From positions 1-41,376 of the forward strand of contig DYJU01000010.1 in NCBI GenBank assembly GCA_020722985.1: a stretch of 41,376 nucleotides of DNA, written 5' to 3'. Under the pieces are notes generated by a model. It did no database searches. It worked only from the letters and a program-made list of their open reading frames with translations, and was not told the origin of the DNA. Below, in pieces: positions 1 through 41,376 of the stretch (position 1 is its first letter; each line of letters starts with the position of its first letter). The position numbers and the translations under genes are program-made. The DNA comes from Candidatus Methylomirabilis sp. GTDB taxonomy: Bacteria; Oederibacteriota; PGYV01; DYJU01.

Positions 1-106
1 TGTAATATTCTCTTAAGAACTAATAGTCTATCTTTATTCATTATTTTTAACTTCTGTATGTGTATACCATGTCTATCCTTATTCCCATAACTTTCAATTT
101 ATAATA

Positions 107-5291: not shown

Positions 5292-6893
5292 ATGAAGAAA
5301 TTTTTTATATGTTTGAATATTTTTTTTATATTTTTTTCACCATTGTTTGCAGAACCTATTGATATTAAAAAATTACCATTATATAAGGATGAGATTATTA
5401 TAAAATATAAAGATAGCATAAAAGATGAAGATTTAGAAAAAATGGGAAAAAGATATAATACAGAGTTTAAGTTAAAAGAAGAAGCAATTTCGTATATTGA
5501 GAGAAAATATAATCTCAAACTTAAAAAAAATTATTTTAAAAATATTCCTTTTTCATGTTATAAAATTTTTGATATTAATTTGATGCAAAGTATTGTTAAA
5601 GAACTTTCAAATGAAGAAATAATAGAATATGCTGAGCCCAACTATTTTAGATATGCTCTTTATACCCCACTTTCTACCCCGGATGATACTTATTATCAGA
5701 ATGGTTCTTTATGGGGATTTAATAAAATTCAGGCAGATTATGCTTTGAATAATATATTTTTTGATACTTTAAAAAATAAAAAAATAATAGTTGCAGTTAT
5801 TGACACGGGTATTGGTTGTGGTAATAACTGTTTTCAAGAAGATTTACAGGGAAGGACTATAAATGGTATTAATATACTTAATCCTGCGGAGTCGCCATCA
5901 GATGATGGAATTTCTTTAGGGCATGGAACTTTTGTTGCAGGAATAATTGCGGCAAATATTAATAATGCAACAGGCATTGCCGGTGTATCTTTATGCAATG
6001 CAACATATACAGCAAATGTTCTGGTTATGCCAGTTAAAGTTTTAGATTCAGAAGGAAACGGTTCTGATGATGTTGTATATACGGGTATTATCTGGGCAGT
6101 GGATAACGGTGCAAAAGTTTTAAATTTGAGTTTTGGTGGAGAAGAAGACAGTATAACTTTGAGAAATGCGATAAATTATGCTTATTCAAAAAATTGTATC
6201 ATTGTTGCTGCAGCAGGTAATTCGGACACATATACTTTTTATCCAGCTGCATACTCAAATGTAATAAGTGTAGGAGCATCAAATATACTTGATAAAAAGG
6301 CTGATTTTTCAAATACCGGGAAAATAGATGTCTGTGCGCCAGGAGAGGATATTTATAGTACAGATAATAAACTTTCTTGTTATAAGTATTCTCAGGCAAG
6401 CGGAACATCCTTTGCTGCTCCTTATGTAAGCGGTCTTGCAGCTTTGCTTTTACTTTATTTTGATAATTTAACTCCGATTAAAGTAAGAAATATAATTGAA
6501 CAAACAAGCGATGATATAGAAGAAACAGGATTTGATAAAAAAACAGGGTGGGGGAGGATAAATGTTTATCGGGCATTACAACTTGATTATAAAAAAGTAT
6601 CAGAAATAAAAACATATAATTGGCCCAATCCTTTTTCTCCAGAAAAAGATATAAATACCAATATAGAAATTATTTTAAATGAACTTACTGATATAACAGT
6701 TGAAATTTATGATGCTGGCGGTGATCTTGTATGGAAAAAGGAAATAAAAAGAAGCGAATTAAATTATGGGCATAACACTATTACATGGAATGGGAAAAAC
6801 ATGCAGGGCAGGACAGTAAATAACGGAGTATATTTTTATGTGGTTAAAAATCCTGAAATTATAGGTAAAAATAAAATTGCAGTTCTTTATTAA
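5292..6893 (+). CDS. secreted subtilisin-like (S8) serine protease with C-terminal FlgD-like/sorting-type domain
   Basis: Signal peptide; catalytic Asp VAVIDTGIG, His LGHGTFVAG, Ser GTSFAAPYVSG; C-terminal NWPNPFSPEKDINTNIEI...WNGKNMQGRTVNNGVYFYVVK. Confidence 0.93.
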   Translation: MKKFFICLNIFFIFFSPLFAEPIDIKKLPLYKDEIIIKYKDSIKDEDLEKMGKRYNTEFKLKEEAISYIERKYNLKLKKNYFKNIPFSCYKIFDINLMQSIVKELSNEEIIEYAEPNYFRYALYTPLSTPDDTYYQNGSLWGFNKIQADYALNNIFFDTLKNKKIIVAVIDTGIGCGNNCFQEDLQGRTINGINILNPAESPSDDGISLGHGTFVAGIIAANINNATGIAGVSLCNATYTANVLVMPVKVLDSEGNGSDDVVYTGIIWAVDNGAKVLNLSFGGEEDSITLRNAINYAYSKNCIIVAAAGNSDTYTFYPAAYSNVISVGASNILDKKADFSNTGKIDVCAPGEDIYSTDNKLSCYKYSQASGTSFAAPYVSGLAALLLLYFDNLTPIKVRNIIEQTSDDIEETGFDKKTGWGRINVYRALQLDYKKVSEIKTYNWPNPFSPEKDINTNIEIILNELTDITVEIYDAGGDLVWKKEIKRSELNYGHNTITWNGKNMQGRTVNNGVYFYVVKNPEIIGKNKIAVLY

Positions 6894-7893: not shown

Positions 7894-9030
7894 ATGGAAA
7901 TAAAAAAGAAAAAAATACTTTTTACAGAGTATTTTTCATTTGTAGGTGGAGGTCAGGTTGTTCTTTTGAACCTGATTAAAAATTTGAAAAAAGATTATGA
8001 GATTAAAGTCCTTTTGTTAAATGAAGGGAAATTAGTTAAAGAATTAGAAAAAGTCGGTATTGATTATTATATAATAAAAGCGCCATTAAAAGTAAAATAT
8101 AGATATTTCTGGAATATTTTACCTGTTATTTTTAAAATTTATCAATTGTTAAAAAAAATAAAACCGGATTTAATTTATGCAAATTGTTTTTTTGCAATAA
8201 AACTTTTAATGCCAGCAATAAGATTATTAAAGATAAAAACAATCTGGCATAAACACGTCATCATAGATAAAAAATACAATTCTTATCTTGCTGGTCAGAT
8301 AAGAAAGTATTCCAAATTAGTAAATATCATCATCTGTGTTTCTTATGCTGTAAGAGAATCACTTATAAATATAGGTGTGAATAAAGATAAATTAAAGGTA
8401 ATTTATAATGGTATAGAAATTCCAGAATTAAATATCAAAAAAGAGAGAAAAAAAATCAGAGAAAAATATAAAATAAAAAATGAATTTTTAATAGGGACTA
8501 TTGGTTTTTTTAGAGAAAATAAAGGTTTTGATATTTTTATAAAATGCGCATATGAATTAAAGAAAAAAATAAAAAATTTAAAATTTATATTGGCAGGTAA
8601 ATCAGATATAGGCACAGGTTCTTATGAGATAAAATTAAGAAATTTAATAAGGGATCTAAAATTAAATGATAATTTTATTTTCCCTGGATATGTTGATAGA
8701 TATAAAATATTACCCGCTTTTGATTTATTTATTTTGTCTTCTTATGCTGAACCATTCGGATTAATAACTCTGGAAGCTTTATCTCTTAATATCCCGGTTG
8801 TTGCTTTTGCAACAGGCGGAAGCAAAGAAATAATAAAAAATGGATATAATGGCTTTTTGGTTAATAAAGTTAACTATAAACTTTTAGCCGAAAAAGTATT
8901 ATATGTTTTGAAAAACAGAAAACATTTAAGAAAAATAAGCAAAAATGCCAGCAAATATATATGGGAAAAATTTGGAATAAAAAAACAGATAATAGAAATA
9001 AAAAAAATCATTAATAGATTAATTGCGTAA
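7894..9030 (+). CDS. GT4-family glycosyltransferase
   Basis: N-terminal GGGQVVLLNLI; YNGIEIP; C-terminal SSYAEPFGLITLEALSLNIPVVAFATGGSKEII. Confidence 0.9.
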   Translation: MEIKKKKILFTEYFSFVGGGQVVLLNLIKNLKKDYEIKVLLLNEGKLVKELEKVGIDYYIIKAPLKVKYRYFWNILPVIFKIYQLLKKIKPDLIYANCFFAIKLLMPAIRLLKIKTIWHKHVIIDKKYNSYLAGQIRKYSKLVNIIICVSYAVRESLINIGVNKDKLKVIYNGIEIPELNIKKERKKIREKYKIKNEFLIGTIGFFRENKGFDIFIKCAYELKKKIKNLKFILAGKSDIGTGSYEIKLRNLIRDLKLNDNFIFPGYVDRYKILPAFDLFILSSYAEPFGLITLEALSLNIPVVAFATGGSKEIIKNGYNGFLVNKVNYKLLAEKVLYVLKNRKHLRKISKNASKYIWEKFGIKKQIIEIKKIINRLIA

Positions 9031-9063
9031 AACTTTAATTAAGAATAAACGTCAAATGAAAAA

Positions 9064-9385
9064 GTAATAGTTCAGATACTAAAAGGAACTTATAAAAGTT
9101 CAAATATTTATAGAAAACCCTTGAATATGATGTTATTGCGAGGAAGCCGAAAGGAAAGTTAAGAAAGAAAAATAAGGGTATATGAGCCAGACGAAGCAAT
9201 CTCGCAGTTGAAAACGGGAGCAGATAAGACTAAAAAGCATTAGGTAATAAAAACAAGATTGCTTTGTCAAGCGGGAGTTAACGAGGTGATAGAAGGCAGA
9301 AGTTATTATTCGCCTGACTTTGCAATGATATAGCGAAAAATTTATATATGGATTAATTTTGTTCTACCAATGGCTAAACTATTAC
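9064..9385 (+). repeat. interspersed MITE-like structured repeat, copy A
   Basis: Non-coding; shares long near-identical blocks with copies B and C (e.g. aataagggtatat..gacgaagcaatct.gcagttgaaaacgg; ttttgttctaccaatggctaaactattac). Ends are inverted: GTAATAGTTCAG ... CTAAACTATTAC. Confidence 0.85.
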
Positions 9386-9405
9386 ATAAAAAAAATTTAA
9401 TAAAG

Positions 9406-9472: not shown

Positions 9473-11800
9473 ATGCTTAGAAAAATTTTGTATGTTTTGC
9501 CTATTTTTTTTATCATTTCTGGAAATATTTTAGCTCAGGATATAATAATAGATGAAATTGATATAAAAGGCAATATAACAGTGGATGAAAAAGAAATATT
9601 ACAAAATATTTCCTATACCCCGGGTATGTTATATTCCAGATATAAAACAAGGGAAGATATAAAAAATTTGTATAAAATTGGAAAATTTGATGATATTAAA
9701 GTTTCGTTAAAAGAAAATGATGGCAAAAATATTTTAATTTATGAAATAAAAGAAAAGCCAAGGATTAATAAAATTATTATAAAAGGAAATAAAGAAGTTG
9801 GCGAAGGCGATATAAAAGGAAAAATGGATAACGAAGAGAAAAAGATTAAATTAAAAGAAAATGAATACTTTGATGAATATAATTTAAAAAAAGCAATAAT
9901 TGATATAGAAAATATGTATAAAGAAAAAAATTTCTACTATGCAAAAATAGATTATAAAATAACTAAAATTGAGCCGGAAAAGGATAAAAAGGGCGATTGG
10001 GTTAATATTGAAATAGAAATAGAAGAAGGAGATAAAATAAAAGTAAAAAAAATCTCAGCGACCGGAAATCAGGTGTTTAGCGTTGATAAAATAAAAGGTA
10101 TAATGAAAACAAAAGAAGAAGGATGGTTTGTAAGCGGCGTATTTGATGAGGAAAAATTCATAGAGGATTTAAAAAATATTTTAAATGCTTATTATGAAGA
10201 AGGTTATATAAAAGCAAAGATAAATGGCTGGACGTTTGGTGAGATTGAAATGAATAAAATGAAAATTATAGATGAACTTGTTAAAATAGATAAAGAAAAT
10301 AAAATTATAACAATTAACATTCCGGTAGAAGAAGGAATAAAATATAAAGTGAAAAGCATTGAAATTGCCGGAAATGAAATTTATTCAAATGAAGAACTTT
10401 TTGAAAAAATTGAAACAAAGGTGGGGAATACTTTTAATAAAATACAATTTGATAAGGATATATTGTCTTTAAAAAGTGCGTATGCTGAAAAAGGGCATAT
10501 ATTTTCACAAATAAATGATATTTATTTTTATGATGATGATATTGGTGAAATTAAAATAAAACTTAATATAACAGAAGGACCGGTGGCTTATATTGAAAAT
10601 ATAAAAATCAGAGGCAATTATGAAACACAGGATAAAGTGATAAGACGGGAATTAACAATAAATCCCGGCGATGCTTTTGATAGTGCTAAAATAAGAAAGT
10701 CCCAGGAAAAAATTTATAACCTCGGGTTTTTTGATAATGTTTTAATTGATACGGAACAGGTGGATATAGACAGGTTAAATTTAATTTTTGAAGTGGTAGA
10801 AAGAAAAACAGGAACAATAGGGTTGGGAGCTGGTTATAGTTCTTTAGAAGGACTCGTGGGTTATATACAACTTACAAAAAGCAATCTTTTTGGTGAAGGA
10901 AAAACATTCAGTGCTGATGTCCAGTTCGGTAATCAGAAAAAAAGCTGGCAACTTTCTTATAAAGATCCCTGGCTGTTTGACACGCCAACTTCTCTCGGTA
11001 TTGATGTGTGGAATGTTTTTAAAAATCAATATTATAATAATCAGGGATATGATCTTGATACTTATGGATTTGATTTGAGTTTTGGCAGGAGATTTAATGA
11101 TGAACAGCAGGGATATATAACTTATAGATATCAGGAAGATAAATATTCAAATATAATAGAAGAATTAAAAGATTATATTAAAGAAGAAAAAAGTTCAATA
11201 AGTAGTATTACCCCTATGTATATATATGATGCCAGAGATGATATTTTTGATCCAAATAAAGGGTTGTATTCAAATTTATCTTTACAGATAGGTGGTGGTT
11301 ATTTAGGAGGAGATTATAATTATTTTAAATTTTTATGGGATGGCAGATATTTTGTTCCGAGTTTTTGGAAGTTCATATGGGCATTTCATGCAAGGATAGG
11401 GAATGCCTGGGGATATGAATGGAATTATGGAAATCCTTATGTTCCACCAACTGAAAAATTTTATGCTGGTGGAACAGATACTGTAAGGGGTTATGAAGAA
11501 AGGGCATTGGGTCCAATAGGAGGTGGTGATTTTACTATTATCACAAATATTGAATACAAATTAAAACTTGTAGAAAGAATTTTAACCCTTGCTTTGTTCT
11601 ATGATAGTGGTAATTGCTGGGACAATTTTAATGACGTAAACTGGACAAATCCTTATTTATATCCGAGCGCAGGCTTTGGAATAAGATTGACAATACCAGG
11701 CACGGTAATGCTCATCAGACTTGATTGGGGATATGCTCTTGATCCAACTAAAAGAATAGAAGGTGGCAAAATACATTTTAATATAGGAAATATTTTTTAA
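9473..11800 (+). CDS. bamA: outer membrane protein assembly factor BamA (POTRA repeats plus Omp85 barrel)
   Basis: Repeated POTRA-type motifs (e.g. IKGNITVDEKEILQNI, IRGNYETQDKVIRRELTINPGDAFD); C-terminal FYAGGTDTVRGYEERALGP; followed by ompH and lpxD. Confidence 0.95.
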   Translation: MLRKILYVLPIFFIISGNILAQDIIIDEIDIKGNITVDEKEILQNISYTPGMLYSRYKTREDIKNLYKIGKFDDIKVSLKENDGKNILIYEIKEKPRINKIIIKGNKEVGEGDIKGKMDNEEKKIKLKENEYFDEYNLKKAIIDIENMYKEKNFYYAKIDYKITKIEPEKDKKGDWVNIEIEIEEGDKIKVKKISATGNQVFSVDKIKGIMKTKEEGWFVSGVFDEEKFIEDLKNILNAYYEEGYIKAKINGWTFGEIEMNKMKIIDELVKIDKENKIITINIPVEEGIKYKVKSIEIAGNEIYSNEELFEKIETKVGNTFNKIQFDKDILSLKSAYAEKGHIFSQINDIYFYDDDIGEIKIKLNITEGPVAYIENIKIRGNYETQDKVIRRELTINPGDAFDSAKIRKSQEKIYNLGFFDNVLIDTEQVDIDRLNLIFEVVERKTGTIGLGAGYSSLEGLVGYIQLTKSNLFGEGKTFSADVQFGNQKKSWQLSYKDPWLFDTPTSLGIDVWNVFKNQYYNNQGYDLDTYGFDLSFGRRFNDEQQGYITYRYQEDKYSNIIEELKDYIKEEKSSISSITPMYIYDARDDIFDPNKGLYSNLSLQIGGGYLGGDYNYFKFLWDGRYFVPSFWKFIWAFHARIGNAWGYEWNYGNPYVPPTEKFYAGGTDTVRGYEERALGPIGGGDFTIITNIEYKLKLVERILTLALFYDSGNCWDNFNDVNWTNPYLYPSAGFGIRLTIPGTVMLIRLDWGYALDPTKRIEGGKIHFNIGNIF

Positions 11801-39095: not shown

Positions 39096-39413
39096 TAATA
39101 GTTTAGTCGCCAGAAGTCCACTTGTAAAAGTGTGGCTAACAGTAAGGAAACACCTGACTGTGTCATTTTCAGAAAGCCGAAAGAGGAGCATAGAAGGGAA
39201 AAATAAGGGTAATATGAAACTTAAGGAAGTAATCTTACTGTTGAAAGCGGAAGAAGACAAGACTAAAAAGCAGCAGATAATAAAAACAAGATTGCTCTGT
39301 CATGCGAAATATAAGGTGGAATGGAAGACAAAAATTATAATTCGCCTGACTTTAAAATGATAACAGAAAAAATTTAATGATTAATTTTGTTTTACCAATG
39401 GCTAAACTGTTAC
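39096..39413 (+). repeat. interspersed MITE-like structured repeat, copy B
   Basis: Same element as copy A: agaaagccgaaag..ataagggtaatat..., aaaacaagattgctctgtca, ttcgcctgacttt, attttgttttaccaatggctaaactgttac; ends TTAATAGTTTAG...CTAAACTGTTAC. Confidence 0.85.
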
Positions 39414-41042: not shown

Positions 41043-41365
41043 GTAATAGTTTAGCCATCGGTAGAACAAAATTGGTCCATATATAAATATAAATCTTTTG
41101 CTTTATCATTGCGAGGTCAGGCGAACGTTAACCTTTGCCTTCTACTGCCACGCTAAATGAGCCTAACAAAGCAATCTTGATTTTATTACCAAATGCCTTT
41201 TCGTATTGTCTTCTTCTTCCGTTTTCAACTGCCAGATTGCTTCGTCATGCTTATATACCCTTATTTCCTATTTTACATTCCTCTTTCGGCTTCCTGAGAA
41301 TGACTACCACAGTGTTTTCTTACCAGAGGCATAACTTTTAACCTGTCCGACGGCATCTAAACGTA
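41043..41365 (-). repeat. interspersed MITE-like structured repeat, copy C (inverted relative to A and B)
   Basis: The reverse complement aligns along its length with copy A, including aaataagggtatataagcatgacgaagcaatctggcagttgaaaacgg and ttttgttctaccgatggctaaactattac; ends GTAATAGTTTAGCC...CATCTAAACGTAT. Confidence 0.85.
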
Positions 41366-41376
41366 TTTCAAAAAAT

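Follow-up and report, generated by a model that had tools for sequence, protein, structure and literature searches.

A putative species-specific MITE family with a strong orientation bias in the genome of a probable Goldiibacteriota bacterium

The window analyzed here is the whole 41,376-nt stretch of contig DYJU01000010.1, from a MAG deposited as Candidatus Methylomirabilis sp. (GCA_020722985.1). The host MAG (G000) comprises 2.13 Mb in 122 contigs and is 84% complete. Its order includes a Candidatus Goldiibacteriota genome (SKW91), and the host most likely belongs to Goldiibacteriota. A noncoding repeat, copy A, lies between a glycosyltransferase gene and an Omp85/BamA-like gene. The Omp85/BamA-like protein, encoded directly downstream of copy A, has five POTRA hits, and a subtilase with a C-terminal secretion-tail-like domain is encoded further upstream (5292-6893). 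Two relatives of copy A, copies B and C, are also in the window. We interpret all three as non-autonomous DNA transposons (MITEs), and their features are as follows (TIR, terminal inverted repeat; TSD, target-site duplication).

9056-9063, no strand: left TSD copy of A (ATGAAAAA); 7 of 8 bases match 9386-9393
9064-9385, + strand: copy A, a putative full-length MITE between the group-1 glycosyltransferase gene (7894-9030) and the Omp85/BamA-like gene (9473-11800)
9064-9082, + strand: left TIR of A, consensus GTAATAGTTCAGCCACCAG; its pairing with the right end spans columns 1-9 and 11-16 of the family alignment
9131-9330, + strand: palindromic core of A, with outer arms TGTTATTGCGAGG and ACTTTGCAATGATA; homologous to core repeats without GTAATAGTT ends in other Goldiibacteriota genomes
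9190-9202, + strand: left arm of the inner palindrome of A, GACGAAGCAATCT
9256-9268, + strand: right arm of the inner palindrome of A, AGATTGCTTTGTC
9361-9385, - strand: right TIR of A, reverse complement GTAATAGTTTAGCCATTGGTAGAAC
9386-9393, no strand: right TSD copy of A (ATAAAAAA)
39096-39413, + strand: copy B, full length; its 8-bp duplication is not kept (2 of 8 bases)
41043-41340, - strand: family-homologous part of copy C (model positions 31-320), inverted, with the right TIR at 41043
41341-41376, - strand: variant left arm of copy C, common to composite copies on contigs C24 and C69; meets the contig end

An earlier note on this DNA had proposed a family of three copies with imperfect terminal inverted repeats, one of them (C) inverted. 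With copy A as the sole query, we recovered copy B at 39097-39413 (E 1.6e-31), copy C at 41317-41043 (E 4.9e-40), and 29 further loci in the same genome. Copy C is indeed inverted. Homology to full-length copies begins and ends exactly at positions 9064 and 9385 of copy A. Copies A and B are both full-length members with genuine terminal repeats, and for neither did homology run past the proposed ends into the flanking sequence. However, only the right end of copy C, at 41043, could be upheld. Its homology to the family model stops at model position 31, which is window position 41340. The rest, up to 41376 (ATTTTTTGAAATACGTTTAGATGCCGTCGGACAGGT), is common to copies on C24 and C69, where it forms part of an insert of about 180 nt inside a longer composite copy. 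Therefore, ATACGTTTAGATGCCGTCGGAC, the proposed left repeat of copy C, is not a terminal inverted repeat. The true left end of copy C lies beyond the contig end.

The family proved to be large. A BLAST search gave at least 51 matches, and across the whole MAG the TIR pattern GTAATAGTTYARCCAY, with one mismatch allowed, matched 260 times versus none for the reversed pattern. Reading 1.21 Mb of the MAG directly, we found 220 matches, 91 of them full length. Scaled by TIR counts, we estimate that the whole MAG has about 270 copies, whole or fragmentary, at about 200 places. These counts rest on the whole-genome pattern counts and on the 1.21-Mb stretches, which were partly picked for holding copies. 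Unselected contigs (219 kb) yielded only 8 matches, so the copies are unevenly spread. Contig ends inside copies are numerous, which suggests that the family helped to fragment the assembly; copy C is itself at a contig end. The main form measures about 290 to 362 bp (typically about 320 bp), and composite forms are longer. None of the 158 matches of at least 150 bp was inside an ORF of at least 100 aa. The copies are short, numerous, and dispersed, and they encode no transposase. There was also one full copy on a 4.3-kb contig (DYKL01000301.1; L048) binned as 'Acetofilamentum sp.' (isolate SulCav_AS07). The genes of this contig match G001, the genome of a sister species in the same genus, at 78 to 83%. 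Therefore, it is probably mis-binned Goldiibacteriota sequence.

The terminal repeats of the family are imperfect (5'-GTAATAGTT; the ends are also written GTAATAGTTYAGCC). Across 83 copies, 15 of the 16 outer column pairs are mostly complementary; position 10 has a constant C/A mismatch. The flanks of different copies are unrelated, whereas the element ends do not vary. When we compared the two flanks of each of 41 full-length copies, 11 had a perfect 8-bp duplication and 15 matched at 7 or more of the 8 positions. A control that paired the flank of one copy with that of another gave 0.06% and 1%, respectively, and the 41-copy comparison gave no signal at 4 to 7 or 9 to 12 bp. Among 83 full-length copies, 28 duplications were perfect and 7 more matched at 7 of 8 positions. 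Mapping of the duplications, which the earlier note had called for, thus gave exactly 8 bp wherever one is present. The insertion target is AT-rich and near-symmetric. Mean pairwise identity among copies is only 77%, which means that the burst is not a very recent one.

The family is absent from G001. Over 12.2 kb, the window and G001 align at 78 to 84%, up to position 9067 and again from 9396, so that the alignment frames copy A. At the copy-A site, G001 has other sequence and a contig break, with no clean single-copy empty site. The 8-bp TSDs, the imperfect GTAATAGTT repeats, and the absence from G001 together show a MITE amplified by transposition, as the earlier note had supposed. We conclude, with a probability of about 0.92, that all three copies are members of one species-specific family of non-autonomous DNA transposons with the history proposed below, its orientation mechanism apart. 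The element represents a new family of MITEs. As a type of MITE it is ordinary, but the degree of its orientation bias is not.

The middle of the element, about 200 bp, is a nested palindrome, GTCATTGCGAGG...GACGAAGCAATCT...AGATTGCTTTGTC...CGCAATGAC (in brief, GTCATTGCGAG...GAAGCAATCT). A likeness of this interior to repeats of unrelated bacteria, which the earlier note had put forward, is real. The short form GTCATTGCGAG..GACGAAGCAATCT was found in 100 IMG/VR stretches, and plasmids of alphaproteobacteria, gammaproteobacteria, and cyanobacteria carry the same short palindrome (Methylosinus, Methylocystis, Halomonas, Calothrix, and Aulosira). Related cores without GTAATAGTT ends are present in two genomes of the same order (G007 and G002), and half-units of the core stand alone in other Goldiibacteriota genomes. 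The TIR pattern had no match in the genome-contig collection or in viral contigs, and a literature search on sequence words of the core palindrome returned nothing relevant. Three interior sites have two-state alleles (GCGAG/CTTAG, CTGACGA/CTTAAGGA, and TTCGCAAT/TTTAAAAT). These occur in many combinations, which suggests exchange between copies.

Composite subfamilies carry more palindromes (TGTAGGGGCAATTCATGAATTGCCCCTACA; also a CCCCTCACCC...CTCTCCCC block). A composite subfamily of about 580 bp (G000:C7:1177-1756, C55:7263-7843, and C40:1-448) consists of model positions 1-186, a block of about 168 nt from another repeat, and model positions 92-320, with about 95 bp duplicated. Other copies are chimeric, with a replaced 3' half (G000:C94:17884-17973, C93:290-386, and C63:44432-44525; L266, L265, and L270), and two of these (L266 and L270) have a promoter-like stretch (TTGACA...TATAAT) that points toward the gene downstream. 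An apparent second family of about 86 nt with the right TIR was considered as the end of an autonomous element. It was rejected because it is the 3' half of the chimeric copies. Part of that 3' half is made up of yet another repeat (GGGAATAAGGATAGACATGGTATACAC...), inside which window positions 1-94 lie. This repeat has about 10 to 13 matches in the sampled DNA, and 9 of 10 or 12 of 13 of them have one strand sense.

We also searched for a mobilizer, and no partner transposase with these ends was found in the host MAG. An 8-bp TSD is the rule for the IS66 family. Here, 5'-GTAA ends occur together with an 8-bp TSD, so an IS66-family transposase would be the likeliest source. Published IS66 ends, GTAAGCGTCCGGCGAACTCACCTT and GTAACCGTCCGGGCA, start with GTAAGCG and GTAACCG (PMC12888890). 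However, the IS66 transposase (PF03050) is absent from both the host MAG (84% complete) and G001, and among 41 genomes it was represented in two, by fragments only. Therefore, the IS66 assignment is a lead and not a membership. The IS256 transposase (PF00872) is likewise absent from the 84%-complete host MAG. Two DDE_Tnp_1 ORFs near MITE copies were rejected as partners; they are an IS1380 transposase and an IS4/IS1634-like fragment, and neither is bounded by MITE ends. A repeated-ORF search for a collapsed IS gave nothing useful. In the sampled DNA, 188 of 197 TIR matches were inside family copies, and none of the remaining 9 was traced to a transposase gene. The transposase families searched for in the MAG were IS66, IS256, and DDE_Tnp_1.

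The copies are strongly oriented. They are aligned with the leading strand in 200 of 220 matches and in 85 of 91 full-length copies (P = 6e-19), and several of the exceptions sit at contig ends. Between co-directional genes, the ratio was 97:2. In convergent and divergent gaps it was 9:5 (P = 0.42) when genes were called as ORFs of at least 150 aa and 15:4 with ORFs of at least 100 aa. The difference between the two kinds of gap was significant with either call (Fisher P = 3e-4 and 0.02, respectively). Although informative gaps are few, this suggests that transcription is involved, rather than replication alone. GC skew (with repeats masked) and gene direction largely agree across the sampled contigs. 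Gene-strand bias in this genome is unusually strong, with 93% of the sampled coding sequence on the inferred leading strand. The favored sense of the MITE is purine-rich (G 22%, C 14%), so a transcript of the reverse orientation would be C-rich and G-poor. Further repeats in the host genome are biased in the same sense.

G001 has its own, unrelated MITE-like family of about 240 to 258 bp, with ends GATAATGTGAAAAGTT and AAAACTTTTCACAATAC (G001:C4:2677-2934, with further copies in L292-L316). Its six full copies are all consistent with 8-bp target duplications. Unlike the host family, it wraps a CCCCCTCTTTAATAAAGAGGGG-type palindrome. Its favored sense, again purine-rich (G 20%, C 11%), is the same as that of the host family, with 25 of 31 matches on the leading strand. 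G001 has its element of about 258 bp at two places where the intergenic sequence of the window, near 11800 and 14146, is just short and uninterrupted, and these reverse empty sites look clean by eye. It is possible, although we think it rather unlikely, that each species of the genus amplified its own MITE, each with a species-specific shell, an 8-bp TSD, and a different widespread palindrome, and that these were filtered so strictly by transcription direction (97:2) that orientation reads out selection. If so, MITE orientation would be a readout of selection on intergenic transcription.

Several alternatives to a MITE family had to be weighed. Segmental duplication or an assembly artifact might be suspected because many contigs, including that of the window, end inside copies. 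We give this idea almost no credence, because the flanks are unrelated where the ends are constant, and copies average only 77% identity. The sharp ends of copies A and B refute it for these two, and the TSDs do so for the family. A RAYT (REP-associated tyrosine transposase) spreading REP/BIME-type palindromes would account for the REP-like palindrome of the interior and for the solitary half-units in other Goldiibacteriota genomes. However, to our knowledge REPs and BIMEs lack TSDs. Their mobile unit is a short palindrome, whereas here it is a whole unit of 320 bp with long terminal inverted repeats and 8-bp TSDs. A REP/BIME origin is thus highly improbable, the TSDs refuting it for the element as a whole, and it may apply to the interior core alone. 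We also consider it very unlikely that selection maintains the repeats as functional structured RNAs or as cis-regulatory units. Their 31-copy consensus does fold at -101.9 kcal/mol, they are co-oriented with transcription, and promoter-like stretches in some chimeric copies face the next gene. However, covariation in the TIR and in the inner stems did not exceed that of shuffles, and two interior alleles break the pairing and reassort freely. An Rfam scan matched a tRNA and nothing else, and copy A has no excess of promoters or terminators. Furthermore, the TSDs and the absence from the sister genome show insertion.

The orientation bias of the MITE family needs its own explanation. We see an even chance that selection removes reverse insertions from gaps between co-directional genes, because their C-rich antisense RNA could cause polar termination. 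The main alternative, which is conceivable but doubtful, is that orientation is fixed at insertion by a transposase that is tied to the replication fork, perhaps by way of the beta sliding clamp, and inserts in one orientation relative to fork movement. Fork coupling would fit the leading-strand alignment of 85 of 91 full-length copies, and also the 30:5 ratio among copies with intact TSDs, which are presumably young. With the looser gene call, the bias of 15:4 persists in convergent and divergent gaps. Furthermore, binding to the beta clamp is known for transposases from many IS families (PMC4549789); that paper cites Gomez et al. (2014), who reportedly described orientation biases. However, the stricter call gives 9:5 in these gaps, significantly weaker than 97:2. 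Also, the unrelated G001 MITE (25:6) and further host repeats are biased alike, and a general constraint fits this better than the habit of one transposase.

For a MITE family under selection for orientation, we propose the following history. A DDE transposase supplied in trans, most likely of the IS66 family, would recognize ends of about 19 to 25 bp (5'-GTAATAGTTYAGCCA...), cut out or copy the elements, and integrate them between genes in AT-rich DNA by a staggered cut of 8 bp. Such a cut would leave the 8-bp duplications that we observed, at what we estimate to be about 200 sites. The palindromic interior, which has the homologues described above, may have been caught between the ends before amplification. 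The copies would then have diverged and exchanged interior alleles, perhaps by gene conversion, which is consistent with their mosaic structure. They lie in the sense of the leading strand and, even more strictly, in that of local transcription, as might be expected if reverse insertions between co-directional genes were lost by selection. Rho-dependent polarity of a C-rich antisense transcript could be the reason for this loss. MITE families as such are common. This one, however, occupies about 200 loci in a genome of 2.1 Mb from an uncultured phylum and is absent from a sister of the same genus, so it offers many natural insertions to study.

The family can be compared with several known repeats. 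Its interior core matches in sequence the widespread GTCATTGCGAG..GAAGCAATCTC palindromic intergenic repeats, but none of those was seen with GTAATAGTT ends. They were seen mostly in short forms (a left half of about 33 to 60 nt), whereas the Goldiibacteriota core is about 200 nt. The interior suggests that palindromes of obscure mobility might spread across phyla by being carried between the ends of transposons that are unrelated. The family resembles IS66-derived bacterial MITEs in its 5'-GTAA terminal repeats, 8-bp TSD, and lack of coding capacity. It differs in that neither the MAG nor the sister genome has an IS66 transposase, and beyond GTAA its ends are unlike the quoted IS66 ends. There is a precedent in the archaeon Haloquadratum walsbyi, whose MITEs are mobile although a functional copy of the matching transposase was not found in the genome (PMC3119063). 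Pneumococcal BOX, RUP, and SPRITE elements are, like this MITE, numerous intergenic noncoding repeats that are presumably mobilized in trans and are partly modular (PMC3049150). However, 60.8 to 63.3% of those elements are on the leading strand (PMC3049150), compared with 91 to 93% for the MITE. This near-absolute co-orientation, against about 61% in pneumococci, makes it testable whether orientation is set by insertion or by host tolerance.
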